From assembly GCF_001642725.1 (NCBI RefSeq), contig NZ_LSUQ01000008.1, forward strand, positions 1 through 64,000: a stretch of 64,000 bases of DNA. The letters run 5' to 3'. The notes under the pieces are model-generated. The model did no database searches and was not told the origin of the DNA. It saw nothing but the letters and a program-made list of their open reading frames with translations. Below, piece by piece: positions 6,364 through 56,165 of the stretch (within the stretch, counting starts at the first letter, position 1; the number at the start of each line of letters is the position of its first letter). This stretch comes from Ferroacidibacillus organovorans. Lineage in GTDB: Bacteria > Bacillota > Bacilli > Alicyclobacillales > SLC66. The position numbers were made by a program, and so were the translations under genes.

Positions 6364-6545
6364 GGGGCCCTCCGTTTGGCCATGCAGGCTGTCACTCCTC
6401 TCGCTGAAAGGCATGTCCCGAGTGAGATGGATCCTCCTGCAAAGGTGCCAGACTGGGGTTCCTTCACTGTCATTCGCAGCCATATAGTTCGCCTACCAGA
6501 TTGGTAGAGCGGCAAGCACTTGGAGGTCCTTGCCGCTCGTCTTCT

Positions 6546-36392: not shown

Positions 36393-37217
36393 TTAACTTG
36401 CGCCCTTCTCTTTTACTTTCAACAACGCTCGCCATATGGAAGAACCGCCAATACCAGCCATAATGACAATGACCAGAAGCAAAGCGACGTTGATAGTATC
36501 TAGGTTGTGAATATGTACCCCTGTTGCAATCCCCCAATCCATCAGCCCCGGCAGCCAGAACGCAATAATTGCAATAAAAACAAATAAAATCCCTCCATAA
36601 AGGAGCGTATTTCCTGCAACATAACGGCCAATAAATGCCTTTGCCTTGTCCCCCAAATTTCTCTGCTCCATCCACCGGCCAAATGCGGCACCAATGATCA
36701 CTTGCATAATCGTGCTCCCTGCTCCATACAAAAAGCCTGGCATAAAACCGAGCCAGGGAGTTGGCATGGTAGGAGCAATCACGGTATAAAGAATGGTTGC
36801 CATTGCGCCTATACCCCAACCGGCCACGAATCCATGTAGCAATGCCAAATTCACAGGTATGGGTTTCCCATTGTCAGATACAGCGGGAAGCAATCGTTCT
36901 ACCCATGGTAAGAAACGAAAAGACTTGCCTCGGTTCAGGACATAATACCCATAAAGCGCCATCACCAGTCCAACCAAGAAATAAATAATCGTTTCTTCTC
37001 CGGGTTTCATTAAAAAACCCGCGAGTGCAAAATAAGCCAACTGGGAAACAATCGCCCTTTGCGCTGTGAACGCAGCCGAGAAGTAAAACCCCGCGCGCAT
37101 CCCTCCTTTAGTGCTGTAACTGCCGATGGCATAACTGAACGTGATCGGCCAAGTATGTTCATCCGGTGTAATCCCGTGAATCATGCCAAGAAACAGAGCG
37201 GTCATTAAATCCATCAT
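36393..37217 (-). CDS. HGITPDEH-type membrane transporter (copy 1)
   Basis: 274 residues, seven or eight membrane segments. The first helix holds MIHGITPDEHTWPITFSYAI, an H-x4-DEH signature reminiscent of the H-x4-DH motif of NiCoT/UreH/RcnA-type metal permeases, and further GSYSTKGGMRAG, LLHGFVAGWGIGA and NLGDKAKAFIGRYVAGNTLL. It lies 33 bases after a Fur-family gene, so the pair is one unit and metal transport is likely. The metal is not determined. A close copy with its own Fur gene is at 47899-48768. Confidence 0.75.
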   Translation of the reverse strand: MMDLMTALFLGMIHGITPDEHTWPITFSYAIGSYSTKGGMRAGFYFSAAFTAQRAIVSQLAYFALAGFLMKPGEETIIYFLVGLVMALYGYYVLNRGKSFRFLPWVERLLPAVSDNGKPIPVNLALLHGFVAGWGIGAMATILYTVIAPTMPTPWLGFMPGFLYGAGSTIMQVIIGAAFGRWMEQRNLGDKAKAFIGRYVAGNTLLYGGILFVFIAIIAFWLPGLMDWGIATGVHIHNLDTINVALLLVIVIMAGIGGSSIWRALLKVKEKGAS

Positions 37218-37249
37218 GAGGGATACATGTTAGGGATTCCACAAGTTTA

Positions 37250-37672
37250 TCAATTGAACTCACCGAACCTCTCTCTGGTAAACGTCGCACATGTACCGAA
37301 CAAATCAAGTTTGTGGTACTCGACCACACAGCCATCCGGAGTGCTAAGTTCCTGCTGACAATCAAAAAGGTCATTTACCCGGTGGCAGTCAAGACAGATA
37401 AAATGATGATGATGCGAGTGCGTGCAGTAGGTGTAGTACACCGCACCATCAAGCAAGAACGGCGAGACCAACCCAATTTTAGTCAAGACTTCGAGCATCC
37501 GATATACTGTGGTTAGGCCAATCCCTACTCCTGCGCCCAACGCTGCTTGGTGAAGCTGAATCGGCGTTCGTGCTTTGTTCGCATGTGAAAATAAACCGAG
37601 CAGTGCTTTGCGCTCTTGAGTGAGGCGATAGTTTTGCTCATGCAACAATGATCGAATATTCGTTATCATCAT
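37250..37672 (-). CDS. Fur-family regulator (copy 1)
   Basis: 140 residues: winged helix (EQNYRLTQERKALLGLFSHA, GLTTVYRMLEVLTKIGLV) and dimer domain with the metal-sensing CTHSHHHHFICLDCHRV. The C-terminal structural zinc pair, CxxC in most Fur/Zur proteins and in copy 2 (GTCSDC), reads GTCATF here: the second Cys is Phe. A perfect 23-bp palindrome just upstream is the likely operator. It probably represses itself and the transporter. Metal specificity unknown. Confidence 0.85.
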   Translation of the reverse strand: MMITNIRSLLHEQNYRLTQERKALLGLFSHANKARTPIQLHQAALGAGVGIGLTTVYRMLEVLTKIGLVSPFLLDGAVYYTYCTHSHHHHFICLDCHRVNDLFDCQQELSTPDGCVVEYHKLDLFGTCATFTRERFGEFN

Positions 37673-41990: not shown

Positions 41991-42733
41991 TGTTATCCAT
42001 CTTGCAAAGAATTCCATCACTGTGGATAGCCTTGATTCTGGGTGGCATCGCGGCATCCCTGTATCTCCGATACCTTGTGCCAAAGAACCCGGAGAACCAG
42101 TTTGTGCGAGATAAAATCTTCACTATTGTACTCTTGTACATTTTGTTCAGTCGGTTTTCGGGCCTTATCCTACATCCGAGCGCCAATCTGCAAGCAGATC
42201 TCTTGTCTTTGCTCAGTGGTGCCTCATCCAGTGGATGGCTAGTTGGACTAGCTGCCTCGGTGCTCTATGCCTTGTTTTCATTTTGGCGTGCAAAACATCT
42301 TGATCCACACTGCTTGGCCGTACTGGCGGAAGCCATCTGTTTTGGAAGCCTGTTGTTTTTCGCATATCAGGCGTACACGGACCTGAACCCGTTTCGAATG
42401 GAAGATATCTTTCGGATCATCTGGTCTGCCGTTTTGATTTGGTTTGTTCGAACAAGGCGAGTTAAGTGGTCGGATCGACCCCAATGGATTTGGGGTGCAT
42501 ATAGCCTCGTACTACTGTTGACTTCAGCCTACGTCCCACATATTAACCGGATGTTCCTTTTTACGACGCCACAATGGATATTCGTCATCATCCTGCTGAT
42601 TGCAGTTTACGCCGAAGCAAGACAGGATTTTGTAGCATCCGGAAGCGTCCAAACAATTGACCTTAATCGGGCATCGACGAACGATGGTATTGAAGGAGTT
42701 TCGAAATTGGACACGAAATCTGATGAGAAGTAA
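41990..42733 (+). CDS. polytopic membrane protein of the thiol-redox operon
   Basis: 247 residues, seven or so hydrophobic segments (IALILGGIAASLYLRYLV, DKIFTIVLLYILFSRFSGLI, WIFVIILLIAVYAEARQDF) and a polar C-terminal tail. General layout recalls Lgt-like proteins but conserved Lgt motifs are absent. Coupled by TAATG to tlpA, so it belongs to the redox pathway; function unknown. Confidence 0.7.
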   Translation: MLSILQRIPSLWIALILGGIAASLYLRYLVPKNPENQFVRDKIFTIVLLYILFSRFSGLILHPSANLQADLLSLLSGASSSGWLVGLAASVLYALFSFWRAKHLDPHCLAVLAEAICFGSLLFFAYQAYTDLNPFRMEDIFRIIWSAVLIWFVRTRRVKWSDRPQWIWGAYSLVLLLTSAYVPHINRMFLFTTPQWIFVIILLIAVYAEARQDFVASGSVQTIDLNRASTNDGIEGVSKLDTKSDEK

Positions 42734-42791
42734 GTTTACCACACATCGGTACGTTGCCAATCAAGAATGGGAGACTGCTCTAATCTGTCTC

Positions 42792-43028
42792 TCATTCTTG
42801 AGCTTTCCAAACCATTTCCACGTACTCTCGCCCACTGAATAGCACTTTCAGAATGTGATTTGACCTTCGTGTTACCAACTTCTTGTTTGTCTCATTTCTG
42901 ATTTCCATCACTTTGTACCCTGCTAATCCAACTCTATCGATTTTTTGTCTGGTTGAACTTGGCTCCTCAGCGATGCATACGGCGCATGTCGACAGGATCT
43001 TCATATTTTCTTCAAAAGTTTGTTGCAT
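42792..43028 (-). CDS. small hypothetical protein
   Basis: Up to 78 residues; the start may be the ATG at 43028 or, with a better GAAG-type site, the one at 43004 (MKILSTCAVC). Contains CAVC and a basic C-terminal half. No family recognised and no operon partner; it lies convergent to the redox operon. Confidence 0.4.
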   Translation of the reverse strand: MQQTFEENMKILSTCAVCIAEEPSSTRQKIDRVGLAGYKVMEIRNETNKKLVTRRSNHILKVLFSGREYVEMVWKAQE

Positions 43029-43111
43029 AATATATCATAATTCGACATAGAAGGGAGGAAATTTTCTCTCACCACACGAATCTGTATCAAATGAAAATCC
43101 GAACTCTATCT

Positions 43112-43210
43112 AGAGACGGGGGACGTATTTATAGGGGCGAATCTACCTGATGGTAGTAGGGAGCGATAAGCCACATCCCGAGCCCGACAACTAACCTCGT
43201 AGGATACAAA
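43112..43210 (+). promoter_or_regulatory. c-di-AMP (ydaO/yuaA-type) riboswitch, second copy
   Basis: Conserved blocks in order: GACGGGGGACG, AGGGGCGAATC, a stem ending GTAGGGAG, then CCCGAGCCCGACAACTAACC and TCGTAGGA. GATAAGCC (43165-43172) inside the leader can pair with GGCTTATC (43213-43220), which covers part of the ribosome binding site AAAGGGG, a plausible translational switch for the LysM/NlpC gene. Confidence 0.85.
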
Positions 43211-43221
43211 GGGGCTTATCC

Positions 43222-43950
43222 ATGCGCAAAGCAGTAGTATCGGCTGTCGTAGCCGCAATGTTTACTGTGTCACTTCCATCTATGGCATTCGCACACACCA
43301 AGCAAAGTAACCAGACTACCTATGCCGCAGCCGTCAATAACCGTTCTACACCGCAATACGTGACTGTACAACGTGGTAACACATTGTATGGTCTTGCAAG
43401 GGAACATCATACAACGGTCCGTAATTTGACACAGTGGAACCGTATTCGCTCCACTCAAATCCTACATATTGGTCAGCGCCTGATTGTGGGGTGGAATACC
43501 TCCGCCAAATCCCGCACGAATTCGTCGACCACACTGAGCAGCCGCAGTGAATCCATCAACAGCAATCTTTCCAGTGCAGTTCTCGGGGAAACCATTGCGA
43601 GGTACGCAACTCAGTTTCAGGGAGTGCCTTATTCGTGGGGTGGCGAGTCACCGAGCGGGTTTGACTGTTCAGGGCTAGTCCAATTCACGTTTGGTCATTC
43701 CGGTGTTCAACTGGAGCGAACCAGTTACAGTCAATTCCAACAAGGTCAGTCTGTCTCCCTCAATGATTTGTCGCCAGGCGATTTAGTTTTCTATGACACA
43801 AACGGACCTGGAGCGTCCCATGTAGGCATTTATGTCGGGAATGGCCAGTTTATTCACTCAGGCGGTAGTCACGTACAAATTGCAAGTATGAACAATTCCT
43901 ACTGGAGAGCACATTACATTGGTGCCAAACGGGTTACCAACTCTGTGTAA
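43222..43950 (+). CDS. secreted LysM-NlpC/P60 peptidoglycan endopeptidase
   Basis: 242 residues: signal peptide (to about residue 25, MAFAHT), one LysM domain (YVTVQRGNTLYGLAREHHTT...ILHIGQRLIVG), a Ser/Thr linker, and the NlpC/P60 domain from about 125 with catalytic FDCSGLVQFTFGHSG and SHVGIYVGNGQFIHSGG. LysM binds glycan, NlpC/P60 cuts the stem peptide. Controlled by the riboswitch upstream; terminator at 43982. A damaged paralogue lies at 49568-49935. Confidence 0.92.
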   Translation: MRKAVVSAVVAAMFTVSLPSMAFAHTKQSNQTTYAAAVNNRSTPQYVTVQRGNTLYGLAREHHTTVRNLTQWNRIRSTQILHIGQRLIVGWNTSAKSRTNSSTTLSSRSESINSNLSSAVLGETIARYATQFQGVPYSWGGESPSGFDCSGLVQFTFGHSGVQLERTSYSQFQQGQSVSLNDLSPGDLVFYDTNGPGASHVGIYVGNGQFIHSGGSHVQIASMNNSYWRAHYIGAKRVTNSV

Positions 43951-43981
43951 CTATGCCGCACTACACTTCGATATCAATGTG

Positions 43982-44005
43982 GGTCGGCACCATGCTGACC
44001 TTTTT
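43982..44005 (+). terminator. rho-independent terminator
   Basis: GGTCGGCA and TGCTGACC pair around CCA, followed by TTTTT; after the LysM-NlpC/P60 gene. A second hairpin (GGGGACCT, CGA, AGGTCCCC) follows at about 44011-44029. Confidence 0.8.
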
Positions 44006-44239
44006 ACTCAGGGGACCTCGAAGGTCCCCCTTAGTCTGTTCATCTGTGTAATCACAATCATTGAGCCATACGGCTTCGACTTCATATTTTTTTCATAATG
44101 GCCGTTTATACTAGAACTCGACTGGTAGGTTTCTCCTTATGTCAGATTTTTTCAAGATGCATTCGAATCGTAGCTAGGCAGAAAAAACATGAACCCCCTT
44201 CAAACACCCAAACAGGAACATTGTGAGGAGTGATTTCAC

Positions 44240-44428
44240 ATGAACGGAAAGAAACGCGTAGCGATTGCCGGAACGCTGATTGTTTTTGCCCTTGCAGGAT
44301 GTGGATCGGGCGGTGGCGATACCGGCAATTCGGGCGGTGGCATGGGTAACATGGACATGAGCAATGGGACGATGAATATGACCAATGGCACAATGGATAT
44401 GGGTAATCAAACAAATTCGACAAAGTAA
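44240..44428 (+). CDS. small Met/Asn-rich lipoprotein
   Basis: 62 residues: signal peptide with lipobox FALAGC, then GSGGGDTGNSGGGMGNMDMS and NGTMNMTNGTMDMGNQ. The MxM repeats are typical Cu(I)/Ag(I) binders of extracytoplasmic copper proteins. GAGGAGTG lies before the ATG. No neighbour on the same strand. Possibly a surface copper trap; no named family. Confidence 0.7.
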   Translation: MNGKKRVAIAGTLIVFALAGCGSGGGDTGNSGGGMGNMDMSNGTMNMTNGTMDMGNQTNSTK

Positions 44429-44554
44429 CCGGGTACGAGGGCCATCGTAAAACTGTCGTATGCGAAAAACGAGGTAGCCACTAAAAAGGCGGCCTCGTTC
44501 CTCCGTATGTTAGCCTCTATCCTTGGGTTAGGGGCACACTCTTCTCGTAGGGTA

Positions 44555-44960
44555 TTGACGGTATAGCACCGGAAAAAATGTGAAGAGTGCTCCCTTTTCT
44601 TTTGCTTGTGATAAACCTTGACAGTTGGTTTAACGACACCAGGCAACGATTCCTCCAGAACCGCCGAACAACAACTCTCCTGTCGTGGCCATCAATGTTG
44701 TCCTTTCACCGCCGACATAAATTAAATTTGTTTTTGATTTCTCACTACACTAATATCTTTGGCCAGAGACTTCCCACAGGCGTTTGGACAACCTGAATAC
44801 CCCACTCTCAGCGGAAATTGGGAGAGGTTTCTTAGCAATGGTCTCATCTAGCTTTCTCGCCACATCAATCCCTTTCCGCATTCCCCCCCATGCAACTCTG
44901 CAAACGTTTACGGTTGATATCCCATCCCTTATGGCGAAGTTGATGTGCGGCTCTGCGACT
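44555..44960 (-). pseudogene. broken copy of the sulfite/nitrite-reductase-domain gene
   Basis: Minus-strand pieces in changing frames follow the intact gene at 46565: GIDVARKLDETIAKKPLPIS, then VGYSGCPNACGKSLAKDIS, YVGGER-like words, and LPGVVKPTVKVYHKQKKREH with SHFFRC. At least two frameshifts and a stop separate them. A decayed paralogue of the gene 2 kb away. Confidence 0.65.
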
Positions 44961-45111
44961 GCCGTGGCCAGGATGCGCCGTGTACACTTAATCGATATTG
45001 CTTCAGGCTCACCCCACCAGCAGACAGCTAAGCCGGCTTGTGATAAAAGCTTGAGCGATTAAGAGAAGGAGTTAGGTCTGCGTCGTCAGTGCGATCTTTC
45101 GATTCCATGCT

Positions 45112-45416
45112 CTACCATGCAAGGCGTTCGACGCCGCTCCGGGTCGATACCAAATTTTTGAGCCACTCGAGCTGAGCGGCTAGCTTCCCAACCTTGGCAA
45201 TTCGTTCGACTTTTTGCTCCTGTACCTTTTGTTCCTTGGTGCCTTGTGCCCGTCCACAAATAGTCTGATGAAGTTCTCCGAGGCAACCTTCTGCCATTGG
45301 CTCAACTGCACGGGGATGGACACCGTACTGCGAAGCAATCTGTGCCATGGTTTTCTTTTCATTTAGTATTTCCTGAACAACAAGGGTTTGAATTTGAGTG
45401 TATACTGTTTTTTCAT
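45112..45416 (-). pseudogene. IS3-family orfA remnant, frameshifted
   Basis: From an ATG at 45416 the minus strand gives MKKQYTLKFK, then in shifted frames VVQEILNEKKTMAQIASQYG, VASENFIRLFVDGHKAPRNK, QEQKVERIAK and GKLAAQLEWLK: the helix-turn-helix protein OrfA of IS3-type elements. No orfB follows. Confidence 0.65.
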
Positions 45417-45917
45417 AGGCTTAGCGCAACTCAACTGTCCTCCTATCAGGTGTTGTCCAGTTTTACGGGCCACCATACCAGGACCACCAAAGTAGGTTTC
45501 ATCCATCTCGACGATGCCAGACAACACGTACTGTTCATCTCGTGAACCCATAGCGTAGCGGATTTTGTGTAACATGAGCCACGCTGTTTTGTAGCTCACA
45601 TCCAATTCTCGTGCAAGCGCCAGCGCAGATATACCACGCTTGTCGTGCGCCACGAGAAATAGCGCCCAGAACCAAATGCGCAGTGGTGTGCGAGTTTTGT
45701 GTAGAATGGTTCCAGCTATGAGCGATGATTGATGACGACATGCCGTACATTGAAACAAGACTCGTTCTGAAATCAAATAATACTTATCGTGTCCGCAACT
45801 CGGACAGCGAAATCCGTTAGGAAAGCGTATTGAAAAAAGGTGCTGACGGCACTCATCATCCGATTTGAACTTCTGTTGGAATGTGCGAAGTGTTAAATAT
45901 GACTGCTTCATGGTCAT
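45417..45917 (-). pseudogene. IS1595-family transposase, truncated
   Basis: N-terminal about 165 residues of an IS1595-type transposase: zinc ribbon (FRCPSCGHDKYYLISERVLF, QCTACRHQSSLIAGTI), helix-turn-helix (LARELDVSYKTAWLMLHKIR) and the start of the catalytic core (GIVEMDETYFGG). It is fused to the IS3 orfA remnant at 45416 and lacks the rest of the DDE domain, so inactive. Confidence 0.75.
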
Positions 45918-46564
45918 CTCTCGTTTCCATGGAAGATAAGACCATTATACCAAACGTACGTTCGCAACACTACCAAGCTGAGCTAACGGAATAGCCACGT
46001 TCGGGAATATTACGTTTACATGATTTGTCCCTATCTTTGGACACTGTGAAATTTCAGTTATTTCTGGTCGCTCCTGATAAACGTGAGAAAGAAATCAAGG
46101 CTCAACTTCTGCGTCCGTCATTCCAACAAACACTCGAAATGCTGTCCTACATCGTCTTTTCCGATCTTAGATGCGACTGTGACGCAATGTGCAAATATGG
46201 TGCCGATGCGTCCGTCCTCAGCAAAATCTCCAAAGTTGTATAGCTCGCGCGAACTTTGATTCAAGCGCATACTTTCTTCACATTTGTCGATTATGATAAG
46301 ACCTCAGCCGGGAGATACATCCCCGTATTTTGGTGGCGATTGCAATTGGCTGCCAAATTGGCAACAAGGTAATTGGTTTAGCTTGCCTACCTGGCAAGTC
46401 CCAATGCATTACGCCACACGTCAGTAAAAATTCGGTCTGACTACACTATATATCCGCAATACGGCTGTCGAATCCGTTTCTGCAATGACCGCCAGAACTA
46501 AGGTGCGAATAATCAAAACTTAGTGGCTCACCGGGGATGTGACATCCCCCAGTGTAGTTGATTT
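45918..46564. other. region with one doubtful gene fragment
   Basis: About 650 bases. A plus-strand frame at 46025-46243 (TTG start, 72 residues) reads VKFQLFLVAPDKREKEIKAQ and LLRPSFQQ...SYIVFSDLRC, recalling the C-terminus of some restriction-related proteins (LVAPD.R...RPTF...Y..LR), but similarity is short. No other gene seen. Confidence 0.3.
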
Positions 46565-46969
46565 TCATATTGCCAATTCATTTCGTAGAGCATCCAACCC
46601 AAAGCGTTTCAAAAAGTGGGAAAACCGCTCCCGCTTCCTTCCGTTCTTCTGATAAACCTTAACGATTTGATTCACAACGCCTGGTAACAAATCGCTAGTG
46701 ACTTTTTCCATTATTAATTTCCCTGACGAGGCATTCAATGTTTTCGTCTCACCACCGACATATACATTGAATGTGTCTTTTATTTTTACAATACCGATGT
46801 CCTTAGACAATGATTCTCCACATGCGTTGGGGCAACCAGAATACCCCACTCTCATCGGGAACGGGACAGACATACCTGCGATTGCCTTATCCAACTCTCT
46901 TGCAGCTTCAAGACCTTCGGATTCAGCGCCTTTACAAAAATTGCAGACGGCAAGATTTTTACTTTGCAC
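46565..46969 (-). CDS. small sulfite/nitrite-reductase-domain protein
   Basis: About 134 residues corresponding to a single C-terminal (siroheme/4Fe-4S) half of nitrite and sulfite reductases: CNFCKGAESEGLEAARELDK and MRVGYSGCPNACGESLSKDI supply the cluster cysteines, with KDTFNVYVGGETKTL after. Too short for an active reductase; such stand-alone proteins exist in Bacilli with unknown roles. GTG at 46984 overlaps AAGGAGG, so the GTG at 46969 is more likely. A decayed copy lies at 44555-44960. Confidence 0.65.
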   Translation of the reverse strand: MQSKNLAVCNFCKGAESEGLEAARELDKAIAGMSVPFPMRVGYSGCPNACGESLSKDIGIVKIKDTFNVYVGGETKTLNASSGKLIMEKVTSDLLPGVVNQIVKVYQKNGRKRERFSHFLKRFGLDALRNELAI

Positions 46970-46984
46970 ATTTATACAACACAC

Positions 46985-47207
46985 CTCCTTGATCTGAATC
47001 GTTCAAATGTCTGGACTCTCCGTTCATTATATCCGACTCTTATATGGCTGTGACTCACACGGTAGGATGAGGCTGATTACTAAGGGAACATGAGCTCTGT
47101 CATTCCGTGAGTTGTTCAAAATCCCGTTCAGTGTGGGCGTGTCACCGGCACAACTTGGCTATCGATTACCGCCCTTCAACATGCCGTCTCGAATCGTTGG
47201 CATGATA
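46985..47207. other. intergenic stretch left of the Tn3-type end
   Basis: About 220 bases. The plus strand at 47130-47207 reads VGVSPAQLGYRLPPFNMP, like the start of the mature TlpA protein at 41439 (APQIGYRMPPFTLP), possibly a scrap of a thioredoxin gene cut by the transposon end. Too short to call a gene. Confidence 0.3.
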
Positions 47208-47281
47208 GGGGCACCGCTAACAAAATGACGCAAAACCCACGCTAAGACAATTTATGGAATAAAACATACGGTTTTTCTACT

Positions 47282-47740
47282 CTAAGCATCTTTCTCTCGG
47301 GTTCTAAGCGGTCTCAACGCATTCTCGGTAGTCGGTGGATTTGTATTGAAAGTGTACTCTCCAAGAAAATTGATGTGCTCCCATCCTAATGGGGAAATGT
47401 GATTTAGCAGTTCTTCGTGAAGTACCCCTTTCTTCGTTTGGAATTCTGTGGCCTTAGTCAAATAGAGGGTATTCCAGACGCTAATCGCATTAATCAAGAT
47501 ATTTAATGCGCTCGCGCGTTGGAGCTGATCCTGTAGGGCTCTCTCACGTAGTTCCCCATGCTTCCCGAAGAAGATGGCTCTGGCCAATGCATTCATCGCC
47601 TCACCTTTATTTAGCCCTCGGTGAATTCTTCGTCTCATGGATTCGCTTGAAACGTAATCCAAAATGAAAATCGTCTTTTCGATCCGCCCATCTCACGAAG
47701 TGCAGTAGCTAAACTGTTTTGCCGCGAGTATGAACCGAGT
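47282..47740 (-). pseudogene. Tn3-family transposase tnpA, C-terminal remnant
   Basis: GSYSRQNSLATALREMG, then a one-base deletion, then EKTIFILDYVSSES, RIHRGLNKGEAMNALARAIF, FGKHGELRERALQDQLQRAS, SPLGWEHINFLGEYTFN. This is the end of a Tn3-family TnpA (full length about 980 residues). Only about 150 codons are left. Its place beside the inverted repeat is the normal one. Confidence 0.85.
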
Positions 47741-47865
47741 TCCTCATGATTATGCGGTGTGTTCGCTGCTCTTCTTGTGGAGCAAACGGACATGAGTTCA
47801 GTAAGAAACCGGAGGACACAACGATGTCCCATAATTGCTGGCGTCCCTTTCAAGTAAGAAAAGAC

Positions 47866-47892
47866 ATACCATCAAGGATATGTCTTCTCAAA
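47866..47892 (-). terminator. terminator of the copy-2 transporter gene
   Basis: On the minus strand AAGACATA, a 10-base loop, TATGTCTT, then TTCTT, directly after the transporter stop codon. Confidence 0.6.
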
Positions 47893-47898
47893 GAAACA

Positions 47899-48768
47899 CT
47901 ACAGGTCTGATACTTTACTAACTTGTCTCATGGCTCGCCAGATTGAGTAACCACCGGCACCACCTACAACCAAAATAATTAATAATAAGGCAACGTTGAT
48001 TGAATCAAGGTTGTAGATGTGCAACCCTGTCGGAAGAGCCCAGTCTGCCAGTTTCGGATCTAACAATTCAATAGCCCCTGCTGCAGCAAACAATATACCT
48101 CCAATGAGCAGCGTGTTCCCGGCAACGAATCGTCCTATAAACGCTTTGGCTTTGTCCCCCAGCTTCCTACTCTCAATCCATCGCCCAAACACGGCCCCAA
48201 TCACAATCTGCATCAATAAAGTGCCAAGTCCATATAGTAGTCCAGGTAAGAATGCCACCCATGCACTTGGCATACGAGGCGAAATTACGGTGTATATGAT
48301 GGTTGCGAACGCACCTGTTCCCCATCCTGCGATAAATCCATGAATCAATGCTAGTTTTACGGGCACCACTTCTTTATCAGTTGGAAGCGACGGCGTCAGC
48401 CGTTCTAACCACGGAAACAGATGCAGCGTTTTATTTCTATAAAGTATGAAGTACCCTGACAGCAGCATGACAACGCCGACAATGACGTACACAATCTGCT
48501 CAACACCTTGTCGCATGAGAAACCCAGCTAAAGCGAAGTACGCTAATTCGGATGCGATAGCCCGCTGCAACGTGAAGGCAAGTGAGAAAAACAAACCGGC
48601 TCGCATTCCACCACGCGTACTGTAACTTCCAATGGAGTAGCTGAATGTAATGGGCCAGGTGTGCTCATCCGGCGTAATACCGTGAACAATACCCATGAGA
48701 AAAACCGTAACTAAATCAATTAACCACGTAATGTGGTGGGGATCGTACCAAAAGTTCAATGAGTGCAC
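47899..48768 (-). CDS. HGITPDEH-type membrane transporter (copy 2)
   Basis: 289 residues, closely similar along its length to the protein at 36393 (shared MxHGITPDEHTWPITFSY, GSYST+GGMRAG, GDKAKAFIGR+VAGNTLL and HIYNLDSINVALLL). H-x4-DEH in the first helix suggests a NiCoT/UreH-like metal permease. The GTG start overlaps the end of the Fur gene by 13 bases; a TTG at 48759 is possible. Lies inside the Tn3-type element. Confidence 0.78.
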   Translation of the reverse strand: MHSLNFWYDPHHITWLIDLVTVFLMGIVHGITPDEHTWPITFSYSIGSYSTRGGMRAGLFFSLAFTLQRAIASELAYFALAGFLMRQGVEQIVYVIVGVVMLLSGYFILYRNKTLHLFPWLERLTPSLPTDKEVVPVKLALIHGFIAGWGTGAFATIIYTVISPRMPSAWVAFLPGLLYGLGTLLMQIVIGAVFGRWIESRKLGDKAKAFIGRFVAGNTLLIGGILFAAAGAIELLDPKLADWALPTGLHIYNLDSINVALLLIILVVGGAGGYSIWRAMRQVSKVSDL

Positions 48769-49181
48769 CCCGCATCGTTTGCAGTCTGGCAGTCAGAACA
48801 CGTTCCATACAAGTCGGAACGATGACTGCTTACACGGAAGTTGTCAGGCACATCAAACGAGGGACAGCTACCTTGAATATCCATTACCCTGTGGCAGGAC
48901 AGACAAACGAAATGATGATGATGTTCACACCCGCAATAGGCATAAAAAATCGTTCCGTCTACAAGAAATGGTGTCGCGACACCCACCTTGGTAAGCACTT
49001 CGAGCAATCTGTAAACTGTTGTTAGGCCAATATTTATATCGTGTTTATCCGCCAATTCATATAGCTGACTTGGGGTCAACATCGAAGATGATGAAGCAAA
49101 CACGTCCAAAAGGCTCTCGCGTTCGCTAGTTAAACGAAATTTCTGACCGTTTAATAGCTCTTTAATTTGCAATTTATCCAT
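48756..49181 (-). CDS. Fur-family regulator (copy 2)
   Basis: 141 residues. Winged helix (GQKFRLTSERESLLDVFASS, GLTTVYRLLEVLTKVGVA) and metal site CGCEHHHHFVCLSCHRVMDI, with the structural CxxC intact (YGTCSDC), unlike copy 1. AAGGTGTGG lies before the ATG. Two palindromes upstream (49201-49223 and 49252-49276) are its likely operators. Confidence 0.87.
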   Translation of the reverse strand: MDKLQIKELLNGQKFRLTSERESLLDVFASSSSMLTPSQLYELADKHDINIGLTTVYRLLEVLTKVGVATPFLVDGTIFYAYCGCEHHHHFVCLSCHRVMDIQGSCPSFDVPDNFRVSSHRSDLYGTCSDCQTANDAGCTH

Positions 49182-49200
49182 AAGACCACACCTTGTTCAT

Positions 49201-49276
49201 TTATAGAAAGTAATTTTCTATAACAATATAAGCGGAAATATTGATGTCGTCAATATAGAAAATGATTTTCAATATT
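49201..49276. promoter_or_regulatory. two Fur-type boxes upstream of the copy-2 regulator
   Basis: Box A is a palindrome TTATAGAAA-GTAAT-TTTCTATAA (49201-49223). Box B (49252-49276) is AATATAGAAAATGATTTTC plus AATATT, palindromic but for one or two positions. Their GAAAAT/ATTTTC cores match the single box of copy 1. Confidence 0.65.
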
Positions 49277-49567
49277 TCCGGTGATCGGGTTAAGACGCAA
49301 GATTTCACGTCTTATCAGCGTAGCATCGAGGAGTACTTACTGGCGAAACGAGGGAGTATCCGTTGCGGGGTCCTTGTTGCATTTACGGGTGCGATAGTGC
49401 AATATCGGCTATCACATAGATGCGAATGAATATACGAAGGTATACATATGACCGCGTTTTCTTCATATTTCGCACCATCAGCAAGATGCTTAGAGTTCAA
49501 AAGACAACTTCCAAACTCCATAAATTGTCTTAGCGTGGGTTTTGCGTTATTTTGTTGGCGGTACCCC

Positions 49568-49935
49568 ATATTGGGCAACGATTAATTATGGGTTGGATTA
49601 CATCACGTAGTTCGACGACCACTACCCGATCAACCACGTTAAGCGGGCGCAGCGAATCCTTGAGCAGTGGTCTTTCTGATGCTGTTCTTGGAGATAGCAA
49701 TGCAAGATACGCTACTCAGTTTCAAGGCGTACCTTATTCCTGGAGTGGCGTCTTGTTGCCCGGCGTTCTGATATTCTTTGATGCGAACGGACCTGGCGCA
49801 TCACATGTCGGCATTTACATCGGAAACGTCCATTTTGTCCATTCTGGTGGCAGAGCTGTAAGCGTTACGGACGTTAGCAATCCATACTGGAGGGTCTATT
49901 TTGTTGGTGCCAAGCGAATCACGGATTCTGTGTAA
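49568..49935 (+). pseudogene. LysM-NlpC/P60 gene remnant
   Basis: Begins at the Tn3-type end inside the LysM domain (HIGQRLIMGWITS, as HIGQRLIVGWNTS in the intact gene at 43222), continues through ARYATQFQGVPYSW and then jumps to GVLIFFDANGPGASHVGIYI. About 40 codons containing the catalytic Cys (DCSG) and following helix are deleted. Signal peptide, riboswitch and most of LysM are missing too, so it cannot be active. Confidence 0.8.
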
Positions 49936-50102
49936 CGGTGTTATTATAAGGCTCATGCCGGCCGAATATCGACGTTAGTCGGTGCGAAGACAGGCCATGG
50001 CGAGGGAAAACCGGTGGTTCCCTTCAATTGAATAAATCTTCACCACTAAGATGGATAGACTTATCTGAACAGCAGTAGAGCCCCTCATGCACGGCATCAT
50101 AC

Positions 50103-51343
50103 TTACCGTTGTGATATTTCTGCTTCAAAGTTCTTCGTATAGGTCTGCATTGATATTCCAAAATTAGATAGAAAGCTCTTCTCCGTCCCATTCTTTGCCC
50201 CTTCTATAAATTCCCGATATTTAGTTAGCCCGTACCTCTGGACGAGTTCATGAACAGCGCGGTAATCTTCCCATTCCACATTATAAGATGCATTGAGGAT
50301 GTCCCTTTCCGAGGCGGAGAGTGGAAGCAATTGCCCACTTTGTGCAGCCCGCCGCAGTTGTTCATTATTTGCATGTATAATCTGATCAGCCTCCACTGAA
50401 CTGACCTTCCTTTGTGCATCCATACCATCAAACCAAGCAGTCCCCTCATTCACCCATGTTGGGACTGAATCGCTTATTCCTTCTTGATTGAACACAGCAT
50501 GTGTTACTTCGTGTGTAAAAATATTGGCTAAATCTGAGTTGCTCTGTAGAGCGGCCCAGTTAATCCATATATCAGAACCAGCTGTAATTCCGCCCGTTTT
50601 TGCAGCCATGCTCAATATGTCTTGAGAACCCACACCCGCCATTGCTAAGGCAGCCGCGTAACTTTGCTTTGAAGAAAACAGGGCAATATTCGTATTCTGT
50701 GGAGTAACGCCTAAATTTTCCTTAAGAATAGAGACTGACACTTGTGTTAAAATACTCGCCCCCAGTTTCAATTCTCTTTCTGATACCTGATCGTCTCCAG
50801 CCGCAATACTTACCCCGTTTGGAAGATGCACGGTCCTTCCTTGATTTACATTAGGCAGTTGATTGATGTTATACAGACGTGTTATATTGGGATCCATGAA
50901 TTTCCCTAATTGTGTCCATTGCTCCGCGACTTTGTTCAGTTGTTTATGTAACTGCGGTTGCTTCGATAAACTCAATGCCACCCAATTCTTCAACGGTGTA
51001 TAGACATGGGTTTGCAACATTCGGTAGGGAGCGGATTTTTCGACAATATCGGCCAACGGAGTAATGGAAACAAGTTGTAACACCAGGAACACCAGTCCAC
51101 CGAAAACAACTGCGCGAACCGCCCCAACAACCGAACCAATCAAGGCGCCCAACAATCGACTGCGCCCAATTGAGGCAGGTAATTGGCGCGGGATAAATAT
51201 GGTCAACTTTTGCAGTGCATGGTTTGAAGTCTCCGATATCACTAAATAAATAATGAAAAATACTATTGTGCGGACTATCCCTGGAATTCCCTGCCAAAGT
51301 TGAACTGCACGTTCTCCCCATAGTGGATAATGGTTTTTGGACT
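50103..51343 (-). pseudogene. CvpA-metallopeptidase gene, 3' part (5' part at 55361-55561)
   Basis: The frame runs from codons HYPLWGERAV near 51335 through the last CvpA helices (GALIGSVVGAVRAVVFGGLV) into a large extracellular domain with FTHEVTHAVFNQEG (HExxH) and WVNEGTAWFDG (third zinc ligand), a gluzincin peptidase of MA type. A GTG at 51242 could restart translation. The first ~65 residues are found 4 kb away, beyond an IS complex. A CvpA-peptidase fusion is itself unusual. If translated, the 379-residue product would lack the first helices. Confidence 0.75.
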
Positions 51344-51403
51344 AAACCGCTACGCGGTGGTAAAAAACCGTCCCCTCCATTAACTGGTGCCTGTTGAAGT
51401 TAC

Positions 51404-53019
51404 CCTGAATCCGTGACATCGGTTCTTAATCTCTTTGATCACTAACGCATGTCATTGTTTTCAGTTGAACAGTGAGTTCTAACGACGGCGGCGCCCCGAA
51501 TGCCAACTCGAACGAATCCTGGCGCGATGCCTACCAGGATATGGGGAAGCATGGGATGAAGCTCTCAACCGAATGCCAAGTACAAACGACGGAACACAGT
51601 GAACCAGGGGTTGCGCCTACCTAATCTAAGATACCTACGTCGGGCATGTGTAGTCACCTTGGCGGCCAGCGTGATAAGATTTTGGATCACAGTTCGAATC
51701 CTGCGACGCTGCACCGTATTTTTCAGGGGAGCGTCCTCTCGTTTCAGGCTCTCCTGCCCAATCATGCGCAGGAGATTGTAGGCCAGTACAGCAAAATGAA
51801 GTACGAGGTCATTGGTATCAAATTTCCCAGATGGAAGCCGCTCCACGTCGAGATCTGTTTTCAGTTCACTATGGAATTGCTCCATTGTGCCATGGGCGTG
51901 GTACAAGTCAATCACCACTGAAGCCGCATCCGGCAGGGATGTCAAATAGACGTCGACCTCAATCTCGGGTACGAGAAGCATCTGACCGTTCTTATCGATG
52001 GTACGCTCAATGACTTCGAAGACCATTCGGACGGGCTTGCTGAGTCCCTTCATCGACGACAGAATCGAACCGCGGTAGATTTTCTTACCCGGGCGAGATT
52101 CGCAACACATGCCTTGACGCTGGGCAGTGAGTAGCCACACGTCTGAACTCTCACGCCGTAGATTCCGCTTGATGATGAAGTCGGCGTACGTGCCCTCGGA
52201 TCGACAGACTACCAGGTTATCTACACTGTCATTCCCGGCATCCATGCGAAGTAAAAGTGGCAAAGAGGTGATGCGCTTCGCATAGCGAATACTCTCGGCC
52301 AGAAACTTTGCAGTGCCCTTTTGACAATGCGTGCTGCCCTCCCGCAGATTGACGTGTACACCGTAACCCTCATGGCCGAGATACGCAAAGATCGGGGCGT
52401 ACCCGTCGTGGCCCTTGTAGGTTCTGGACACACCCTGTTTTTTGGTCCCCGAGTTGTCAAATGGCGAGACGTCGATATCCAGTGGGACGTACGAACGTTC
52501 TTTATCTCGTCCTAAGTGAACGGGCGAGACGCTGACGCCGAAATCATGCAGGAGATTGGCTGACTCCTCCAGAATGATAGGTTTCCAGTCAGAGATTGGG
52601 GCGGCCATATCGAAGCGTTGGCGCAGCGTAGGGCTGGATGGAACAGTGCCAATTTGCAAGGCAGCAAAAAAGAATTCGTCCTCACGAAACGGCTCGATGT
52701 GGTCGAAGTCGCTCTTTCCCTGGCAGAGCAAACCAAGGTATGAGTAGGCGACATCACGATTGGAGATGTCTGGCGTACCCACCCCGGGCACGGTCGTTTG
52801 ATTCAAACGCGATCCAAGATTCGTTTTATCCAGCAGTAGTCCGACAAGGGACAGGCCTGAATGCGTTGTCATGGTCTCGTCAGATTGCTCAATGATGAAG
52901 CGCAAGAGATCACCTCATTGGTGAATTTAGATAACCCGGAATATCTCCCGTTCTCTCTATTTTACTTCATCATTCTATTAATTTCGAAGCTTTTCAAATA
53001 CTCGTGTCACGGATTCAGG
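51404..53019 (-). mobile_element. IS1380-family insertion sequence
   Basis: Ends CCTGAATCCGTGACA (51404-51418) and its complement (53005-53019); GTTAC directly repeats outside both (51399-51403, 53020-53024), a 5-bp target duplication. 1616 bp, one transposase gene. It sits inside the left part of the IS91-type element. Confidence 0.85.
51565..52905 (-). CDS. IS1380-family transposase
   Basis: 446 residues from a TTG with GAGGTGATC upstream. Typical IS1380 features: PLDIDVSPFDNSGTKKQG (first Asp region), LLLRMDAGNDS (second Asp), FHSELKTDLDVERLPSGKF (Glu) and NLLRMIGQESL. Full length, ends intact. Confidence 0.9.
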   Translation of the reverse strand: MRFIIEQSDETMTTHSGLSLVGLLLDKTNLGSRLNQTTVPGVGTPDISNRDVAYSYLGLLCQGKSDFDHIEPFREDEFFFAALQIGTVPSSPTLRQRFDMAAPISDWKPIILEESANLLHDFGVSVSPVHLGRDKERSYVPLDIDVSPFDNSGTKKQGVSRTYKGHDGYAPIFAYLGHEGYGVHVNLREGSTHCQKGTAKFLAESIRYAKRITSLPLLLRMDAGNDSVDNLVVCRSEGTYADFIIKRNLRRESSDVWLLTAQRQGMCCESRPGKKIYRGSILSSMKGLSKPVRMVFEVIERTIDKNGQMLLVPEIEVDVYLTSLPDAASVVIDLYHAHGTMEQFHSELKTDLDVERLPSGKFDTNDLVLHFAVLAYNLLRMIGQESLKREDAPLKNTVQRRRIRTVIQNLITLAAKVTTHARRRYLRLGRRNPWFTVFRRLYLAFG

Positions 53020-53106
53020 GTTACTTTCCTCGCACCAGAGATTCCCTTAAGATTCGCGCTATGCAGCCCTTTTTCGACTGCAAATGAATCTTGAGGAGAA
53101 TGCGAA

Positions 53107-53989
53107 ATGAACGAACAAAGACAAGTGTTAAAACGGTTGGCAGAAGATATTCGGCTTCGGGGGTTATCGCAGAATACACTAGAGAGCTATACCATGCATG
53201 CACGGATTTTTCTGGAGTTTAGTGGCCACCGACCGATAGAACAACTGAATACAGAAGATATCCGCCGATTTCTGCTACATTTAATCCATGAAAAGAAGGT
53301 GTCGCCCGGAACCGTAAACGTCTACAGCGCTGCGATTCGTTTTCTCTTTGCTGTGACCTTGAATCGTACGCTGAATTACCTCCAAATTCCTCGTCAGAAA
53401 AAACACAAGACCCTGCCTGAAGTGTACCAGGGATGAAGTGAACTCTATTTTGGAGAGTTGCCACAACATCAAACACAAGGCCATGTTGATGGTGGTCTAT
53501 AGCTCAGGGCTACGGGTCAGCGAGGCCGCAGCCCTCAAAATCCAGCACATTGATTCAAAAAACATGCGTTTGTTTGTGCAAAACGGTAAAGGTGGCAAAG
53601 ACCGCTACACTTTACTGTCAGACGCCTGCCTAAACGTTTTGCGCAAGTACTGGAAGGAATACCGGCCAAAGCACCCCGAGGGATGGCTGTTTCTTGGCAC
53701 GTACAACGTGACCCATATTACCCCTGACGCCATCGGCGATGCTTTCAATAAAGCGGTCCAAAGAGCTCACATCGCCAAACAAGCGTCCATCCACGCTCTA
53801 AGACACTCCTTCGCCACACACCTACTGGAAGATGGGGCCACATTGCTACAGATCAAATCATTGCTGGGACATGCCAGTGTTCAGTCCACGACAATCTATT
53901 TGCATCTAGCGAATATGCCTTCTGGTATCGTAAGTCCGCTGGACAGTCATTCCACAGGCACTGAGTTTGAGGTTTCTTCACATGCCTGA
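53107..53989 (+). pseudogene. tyrosine recombinase/integrase, one frameshift
   Basis: First frame: SAM-like N-terminal domain (LAEDIRLRGLSQNTLESYTM, HLIHEKKVSPGTVNVYSAA) to KKHKTLPEV. The next frame, offset by missing bases at about 53430, resumes RDEVNSILESCHNIKHKAML with YSSGLRVSEAAAL (Arg), HALRHSFATHLLEDG (HxLRH), LLGHASVQSTTIYLH (His...Tyr). So all catalytic residues exist but in two frames. It overlaps the IS91-type transposase start; this pair is a known arrangement. Confidence 0.8.
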
Positions 53990-55112
53990 ATTACAAGACA
54001 TCTTTGCGCAGCATGGAGAAGCGTATCAAGTCAAACACCGTCTTCCACCTGACCAGCAGAAAGTGATCCGCGCGATTCGAAACTGTAGAACTGCTGCGTT
54101 AGGTGGACATGTGGATGAATGTGACGAATGCGGATTCGTGCGGGTCTCTTACAATTCGTGTCGTAATCGTCATTGTCCCAAATGCCAAACGCTCACCAAG
54201 GAACGTTGGATTGAGGCTCGAAAAGACGACTTGCTCAATGTTGGATATTTTCATGTGGTGTTTACTCTGCCTGACCTACTAAATTCCGTTGCGTATCAAA
54301 ATCCCAAGACTATCTACGGCCTTCTCTTCAAGGCAGCGGCCGAAACGCTGTCCGAACTCGCCGCTGACCCCAAATATTTGGGTGCACAAATTGGTTTCAC
54401 AGGAGTCCTCCATACATGGGGGCAGAACCTGATGCATCATCCGCATCTGCACTGCATTGTGCCCGGCGGCGGACTGACTTCCAATGGCAGGTGGGTGAAC
54501 TCGCGAAAGAAGTTTTTCATCCCGGTGAAGGTGCTGTCTCGGAAATTCAGAGGCAAGTTCCTGCATTATTTGAAAGAGGCGAAGCTTGAATTTTACGGCT
54601 CCATCGTGCACTTGCAAGAGCAGAGCCAGTTTCAGGATTGGATGTCTTCTCTATACCAAAAAGAATGGGTGGTCTACTGCAAACCGCCCTTCAAAAACGC
54701 TGGACACGTTGTGGAATACCTTGGACGCTACACTCACCGCGTGGCTATTTCCAATCACCGGATTGTCAATTTGGAAGCGGGAATGGTGACGTTCAAGTGG
54801 CGGGACTACAAGGATGACAACCAACAGAAGGAGATGAGTCTGACCGCAGATGAATTCATCCGTCGTTTTTTGATTCACGTGTTACCTACCGGATTTACGA
54901 GGATTCGGCACTACGGGCTACTCAGTCCCAGAAATAAAGCAACCAAGCTGAAACTGTGTAAACGACTTACGAAGACCGCCGTAAGAACAACTCCACTCCC
55001 CAAGCTGTCCGCTCTGGAATTCTTGGAGAAGCTCACTGGCAGAGATTTCACCGTTTGTCCTTGCTGCGGTATTGGTCATCTCAGAGCTTCACCAGAACAA
55101 GGAATTGCATAG
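53982..55112 (+). CDS. IS91-family (HUH) transposase
   Basis: 376 residues from the ATG at 53982 (MPELQDIF) with GAGG 9 bases before. N-terminal zinc-binding domain (CDECGFVRVSYNSCRNRHCP, KCQ), then HTWGQNLMHHPHLHCIVPGG with the HUH-type His pair, and a Tyr-rich part (YLGRYTHRVAIS). Rolling-circle transposase. Intact. Confidence 0.9.
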   Translation: MPELQDIFAQHGEAYQVKHRLPPDQQKVIRAIRNCRTAALGGHVDECDECGFVRVSYNSCRNRHCPKCQTLTKERWIEARKDDLLNVGYFHVVFTLPDLLNSVAYQNPKTIYGLLFKAAAETLSELAADPKYLGAQIGFTGVLHTWGQNLMHHPHLHCIVPGGGLTSNGRWVNSRKKFFIPVKVLSRKFRGKFLHYLKEAKLEFYGSIVHLQEQSQFQDWMSSLYQKEWVVYCKPPFKNAGHVVEYLGRYTHRVAISNHRIVNLEAGMVTFKWRDYKDDNQQKEMSLTADEFIRRFLIHVLPTGFTRIRHYGLLSPRNKATKLKLCKRLTKTAVRTTPLPKLSALEFLEKLTGRDFTVCPCCGIGHLRASPEQGIA

Positions 55113-55360
55113 CCTTGGTCGAGCGCCTCTTGATTGGGGAGGGGGAAACTGTATCCGCTTGCCATATCATGCGGCCAATCACCGCCTGTTTCCCGCCAAT
55201 TAGCTCTTCTCTGAACCTGTAACATCGGTTTATCAAGACACCATGAGCCTGTTTCTTTCCCCATAGTGGCGGGCGACCGCAGTTTAGTCCAATAGAATTA
55301 TCCAAAATCGGCGTTCCTTCACGGAATGCCACCTCTTTTTACTCGATTTTCGATAATTCT
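55113..55360. other. IS91-type 3' terminal region
   Basis: About 250 bases between the transposase stop and the point where CvpA coding resumes. It should hold the element's origin end. A 12-bp word TCCCCATAGTGG (55258-55269) repeats in the same orientation at 51315-51326, near the other junction. Confidence 0.45.
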
Positions 55361-55561
55361 CTATTCATTATTTTGAGTTATATAATTCGTGAATTGGATG
55401 CTAATTACCCATGTAAACCATAGAGCCCCAATTCCAACCGCCGTAGAAATGAACCGACTCACGACATAAACGAGTTCTGTAGCAAACCGATGCAAGACAC
55501 CCGAAATAATGGAGTACAGTAAAATCCCCGCAAGTGTTAATGTCATCCAGTCGATGTACAT
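55361..55561 (-). pseudogene. CvpA-metallopeptidase gene, 5' part
   Basis: Starts MYIDWMTLTLAGILLYSIIS after GGGGGG, continues with VLHRFATELVYVVSRFISTA and VGIGALWFTWVISIQFTNYI, then stops after 66 residues. This is the first half of a CvpA domain (two membrane helices) without the second half. The missing part matches the frame at 50103-51343, same strand and right order. Confidence 0.7.
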
Positions 55562-55573
55562 AATACCCCCCAT

Positions 55574-56165
55574 TCATAGCTTTTCGCAGTGTCCCCTGTT
55601 TTCTGTCTAAAAATATGGCATTTTAGGAGTCTTGATATCCGAGTAGGAGTCAAATCAGCGACTTCAATGCCTCAGTTCACGCGTACACAAACCCGCACAT
55701 AAGAGGTCTGTTGCCCCCATATTAATCGCATCAGTTGAAATTTTATCCAGTTTGCAGACGGGTGGTGATAACGCTTCTTTTCTCTCCGCTGCACCCGACG
55801 ACCAACTGATTCTCACCTATGCTATCCATCTCTTGGCACTGCGTTACAGTTTATCGCTTCAAGACAATGTGATCCATGGCGCCCAGAGAAATTCTCGCAG
55901 GGTAGTAAAGCATCGTTCGTCTTACAGTGGTCGTCATTCGTATTAGAAAAAGCAAGAGATATGCGTTCCCCAGACTTTCAGGGCGTTCGGTTGCTGTTGC
56001 AACGAGAGCTTCCTGGAATCCCGCTCAACGGAAGGCTCGTCTTCTACCAGACCTTCGAACCAGGGCTCATACATGGCATTACATTTACATTTACTTGTTT
56101 GCACGTCACCCTTTCCCGTCAACAAATTCTCCGAGGATCTTGAAGCCTGTCGTCTTTCCTAAAGT
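55574..56165. other. intergenic region
   Basis: About 590 bases. A plus frame (55927-56508) runs antisense into pspA and looks like a shadow; others are short. It must hold the cvpA-peptidase promoter on the minus strand. No gene seen. Confidence 0.4.

Follow-up and report, generated by a model that had tools for sequence, protein, structure and literature searches.

A probable relic of a Tn4430-type Tn3-family transposon enclosing a Fur-transporter operon in Ferroacidibacillus organovorans

Tn4430 of Bacillus thuringiensis is an autonomous Tn3-family transposon in which tnpI and tnpA are colinear. It is not known to carry passenger genes. An adjacent deletion driven by the transposase TnpA, or recombination between copies, leaves exact transposon ends with unlike flanks. 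Deletions and inversions are listed among the products of replicative transposition, and the catalytic triad of Tn4430 TnpA consists of D679, D751 and E881 (PMC9579193). Tn3 derivatives that carry cargo and have no transposase are already well known. MICs, described on the Xanthomonas citri plasmid pXAC64, are transposase-less derivatives with cargo (PMC7157771). TIMEs and larger mosaic derivatives have been caught in transposition, generating 5–6-bp duplications, and action of Tn3-family TnpA proteins in trans is documented (PMC4133298). TIME-COMPs bear resistance genes (PMC13367494). The original prediction for the locus considered here, that cargo-bearing elements of this sort are little described, was therefore mistaken, because MICs and TIMEs/TIME-COMPs are elements of just this sort (PMC4133298, PMC7157771, PMC13367494).

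The locus lies in a 64,000-nucleotide stretch of contig NZ_LSUQ01000008.1 of F. organovorans, referred to as the window. The element occupies 47208–49567, 2360 bp in total, in agreement with the 2.36 kb foreseen, and its features are collected in table 1. Inverted ends of about 50 bp had been predicted at precisely these positions; they measure 51 bp. Judged by sequence, they are genuine Tn3-family transposon ends: they show the terminal repeats of type GGGG...ACGCTAAG common to full Tn3-family elements, and the end on the tnpA side closely matches that of an element on plasmid p1 of Alicyclobacillus sp. SO9. The last 148 bp (49420–49567) share 87% identity with a lone end in another genome (G023). 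A chance inverted repeat beside a stray tnpA fragment, with no transposon ever involved, is already refuted: inverted matches of such ends appeared 0 times in 100 shuffles of the sequence, and near-identical ends with target duplications exist on two plasmids. All three enclosed genes, the Tn3 transposase tail and those for the transporter and the Fur-family regulator, are on the minus strand.

Table 1. Features of the F. organovorans element and its right flank (window coordinates).
Feature	Position	Strand	Remarks
Terminal inverted repeat, tnpA side	47208-47258	+	48/51 identical to opposite end
Weaker subterminal inverted match inside the ends	47273-47295 / partner 49480-49502	+ (47273-47295)	sequence alignment of both ends
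tnpA 3' remnant	47288-47742	-	residues 839-990 of 991-aa TnpA; frameshift at residue 857
Deletion junction	47750		tnpA codon ~838 fused to sequence directly after the recombinase gene
Backbone scrap	47750-47801		83% over 52 bp to L045 1800-1749
Cargo 1, predicted membrane transporter, 289 aa	47899-48768	-	homologues across order
Cargo 2, Fur-family metalloregulator, 141 aa	48756-49181	-	PF01475 1.3e-18; PDB FurB/Fur matches
Predicted operator/promoter region	49202-49274	-	Fur-box-like palindromes ATTGAAAATCATTTTCTAT, ATAGAAAATTACTTTCTAT
Terminal inverted repeat, cargo side	49517-49567	-	51 bp
Right flank, LysM/NlpC-P60 gene	49568-49935	+	begins abruptly at ~residue 82; 5' part missing

The Tn3-family nature of the ends, also predicted, finds its clearest confirmation in full-size relatives with 5-bp duplications. 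On SO9 plasmid p1 (NZ_CP066340.1) the same ends bound positions 6494–26556, an element of 20.1 kb with AAGAA duplicated on both sides; on a plasmid of Alicyclobacillus sp. ALC3 they bound 93181–102682 (9.5 kb), with TTCAA on both sides. The SO9 element encodes a full 991-aa TnpA and a 188-aa tyrosine recombinase (PF00589), and its cargo comprises YnfA, ArsR, cation-transport and arsenic genes. SO9 TnpA residues 7–988 (982 residues) align to Tn4430 TnpA, the sole match of this protein among PDB entries. In the relatives the tyrosine recombinase gene adjoins tnpA. A third intact tnpA/recombinase pair, with an MFS transporter gene alongside, is present on a contig (L045) of a Desulfosporosinus metagenome-assembled genome. 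These relatives, on Alicyclobacillus plasmids (L042:6494-26556; L060/L061) and in Desulfosporosinus (L045), make up a Tn4430-like family whose tyrosine recombinase is compact (188 aa) and encoded divergently from tnpA, and whose metal or efflux cargo is exchangeable.

Comparison with these elements indicates what the F. organovorans copy has lost. Its leftmost 543 bp share 93.6–94.2% identity with the SO9 and ALC3 plasmid elements. The tnpA remnant is 97% identical to SO9 TnpA at the protein level (tblastn with SO9 TnpA as query) and matches PF01526 (3.1e-36); the DDE_Tnp_Tn3 domain, complete in SO9 TnpA, is represented here by a C-terminal remnant only. Alignment to Tn4430 TnpA (7qd8) shows that the Glu of the DDE triad is retained and that both Asp residues are absent, so that the remnant cannot be a working transposase. 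A tnpA tail without a working product had indeed been predicted; the tail proves to be both truncated and frameshifted. At 47750 homology to the Desulfosporosinus contig jumps from position 5132 to 1800, and the counterpart of the adjoining backbone scrap closely follows the stop codon of the tyrosine-recombinase gene. Relative to intact elements, about 3.3 kb are missing at this point. The jump points to one deletion that took TnpA residues 1–838, the recombinase gene and the intervening spacer. Judging by the interval deleted, the resolution system would have been lost as well.

As cargo the element carries two genes that form an ordinary operon, which occurs in relatives without Tn3-type ends. 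The prediction of a metal module holds to the extent that a metal-type regulator and a predicted transporter are present. The Fur-family gene overlaps the transporter start, and the two genes adjoin one another in six other genomes examined (G001, G003, G005, G018, G048 and G054). The palindromes of the predicted operator region are of the same type as those upstream of the relatives' operons, where full Fur-box-like palindromes (ATTGAAAATCATTTTCAAT type) occur in four of the six and similar, weaker sites in the other two. No Tn3-type ends were detected near the relatives' cargo loci, where scores of 25–29/51 compare with 26–27 in shuffled sequence. Transporter homologues are encoded by 26 of 59 genomes of the order, and the motifs H-G-x-T-P-D-E-H and H-G-x(2)-A-G-x-G are invariant in their alignment. 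The Fur partner, the operators and these histidine motifs suggest that the protein is a metal transporter. The best homologue (87% identity) is found in a member of another family (G018), whereas the two paralogues resident in the same genome reach 61% and 48%; this suggests Alicyclobacillus-type relatives as the source of the operon. The window transporter has no Pfam match above cut-off, DsbD_2 matches weakly in one relative only, and profile searches yielded no relative of solved structure. Its single-sequence structure prediction (pLDDT 51.6) is too poor for use. The family, marked by an invariant HGxTPDEHTWPITFSY motif, is widespread in the order yet lies outside Pfam at that cut-off. A resident chromosomal Fur-transporter operon also occurs in the window (36393–37672, minus strand). 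It is about 92% identical to its counterpart in the same-genus genome G001, and its transporter gene has a stop a few codons past the conserved start; a later ATG gives 274 aa.

The element has no 5-bp target duplication (TGATA on the left, ATATT on the right), and its flanks belong to different genes. Residues of the truncated nlpC gene on the right are numbered from its paralogue at 43222–43950. The missing 5' part does not lie to the left of the element, and nowhere in the genome does a second nlpC fragment abut an end of this type. The left flank is other DNA and may include a fragment of a tlpA-like gene, but the weak TlpA-like match (11 residues; 30 bp in G001) is too short for reliance. 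In G001 only about 360 bp separate the gene that borders the element on the left from the region to the right of 56135. The 47.0–56.1 kb segment, in which the element and the nlpC fragment lie together with several IS-type genes, is additional in this strain and has no counterpart in that genome; because all of it is lacking there, the exact empty site is not obtainable from G001. Viewed more widely, 42418–56135 contains two blocks of extra DNA relative to G001, of about 4.1 and 9.2 kb, rich in IS remnants, among them an IS1595-type element at 45363 and a probable transposase at 51565. A probable tyrosine recombinase and an IS91-type transposase, the latter named from sequence only, lie at 53107–55112. 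A sirohaem nitrite/sulfite reductase-domain gene (46565–46984, minus strand) has lost an internal stretch of about 225 bp; it is intact, at 220 aa, in G001, and a decayed second copy of its tail is present at about 44605–44821. No Rfam match was found in 46900–49700.

We consider the element to be a relic of a Tn4430-type Tn3-family transposon, internally deleted and holding a metal-type operon, with a probability of roughly 0.85. This reading rests on the single copy, the missing target duplication, the unlike flanking genes and the finding of no other Tn3 transposase in the draft. The original prediction held that a helper transposase in trans could move the element, which the searches leave unsupported. 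The pair of ends occurs once in the F. organovorans genome, and no full-length related tnpA and no other PF01526 gene was found in its 98 draft contigs; a draft of this kind may lack a plasmid with a helper gene. Searches of 59 genomes of the order and of plasmid and viral collections, together with one pattern scan of GTDB species genomes, brought up no second copy of the element. Lone ends in five genomes (G002, G005, G015, G023 and G035) have no partners within the stretches read. It is accordingly quite unlikely that a MIC-like non-autonomous element arrived here as a 2.36-kb unit, even though the exact, well-conserved ends match those of active-looking relatives. Other genomes of the order do have full-length related tnpA genes, which makes action in trans possible in principle, as documented for the family (PMC4133298). 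The near absence of mutations in the two exact ends is also a point against the relic reading, being equally expected of a non-autonomous element that moved recently. The missing duplication, for its part, bears on intact insertion and not on the origin of the element.

The relic itself might have had two parents, one contributing the left end and tnpA tail and the other the right end and cargo. Recombination between two such Tn3-type copies, a variant compatible with the relic reading, would account for the unlike flanks, and the right subterminal 148 bp do match a different relative (the lone end in G023) than the left part. The two ends of intact elements, however, also diverge past their first 51–79 bp, so that a single parent suffices, and the backbone sequence at 47750–47801 fits the same family. 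A hybrid origin is possible, if rather unlikely. No intact transposon with the same Fur-transporter cargo was found, so that a parent uniting these ends with this cargo is inferred.

On the relic reading, an intact transposon that had acquired the Fur-transporter operon would have inserted at this locus, probably within a strain-specific island of foreign DNA. A single internal deletion would subsequently have killed it, leaving both ends, the last 152 TnpA residues and the piece of backbone that had lain on the far side of the recombinase gene, with 3.3 kb lost between them. An adjacent TnpA-driven deletion, or recombination of two copies, may then have given the exact ends their unlike flanks. 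What remains would be an operon fixed in place as a passenger, and its expression probably still responds to metal. Should a related TnpA enter from outside, the ends could in principle still serve as its substrate. With the recombinase gene gone, along with the spacer expected to hold its site, the cointegrate formed in such a move should stay unresolved. There is a slender chance that the element travels solely in this manner, whenever a Tn4430-like TnpA enters the cell, and so carries its operon between Bacillota of the order.

The locus is a further instance of a metal-type operon on a Tn3-type transposon, fixed after the death of the transposon, and points to a Tn4430-like family with exchangeable cargo in Alicyclobacillus and its relatives. 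The SO9 p1 element resembles it in its near-identical ends, the tnpA tail (94% at the DNA level over the first 543 bp) and its variable metal passenger genes; it differs in its intact TnpA and tyrosine recombinase, its 20.1-kb length, its arsenic/cation-transport cargo and its 5-bp duplication. Tn4430 is related through a TnpA homologous nearly end to end and through the tyrosine recombinase gene that neighbours tnpA in intact relatives, although its tnpI and tnpA are colinear and those of the SO9 type divergent. Like MICs and TIMEs/TIME-COMPs, the F. organovorans element has Tn3-family ends around cargo and no functional transposition genes. A size of 2360 bp, a single copy and two genes rule out a TIME or MITE proper, which is about 262 bp in the type case, multicopy and without coding cargo. 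TIMEs have been captured in transposition with 5–6-bp duplications, whereas neither a duplication nor a second site marks this element as having moved as a unit, and, unlike MICs and TIMEs, it still retains a remnant of tnpA.
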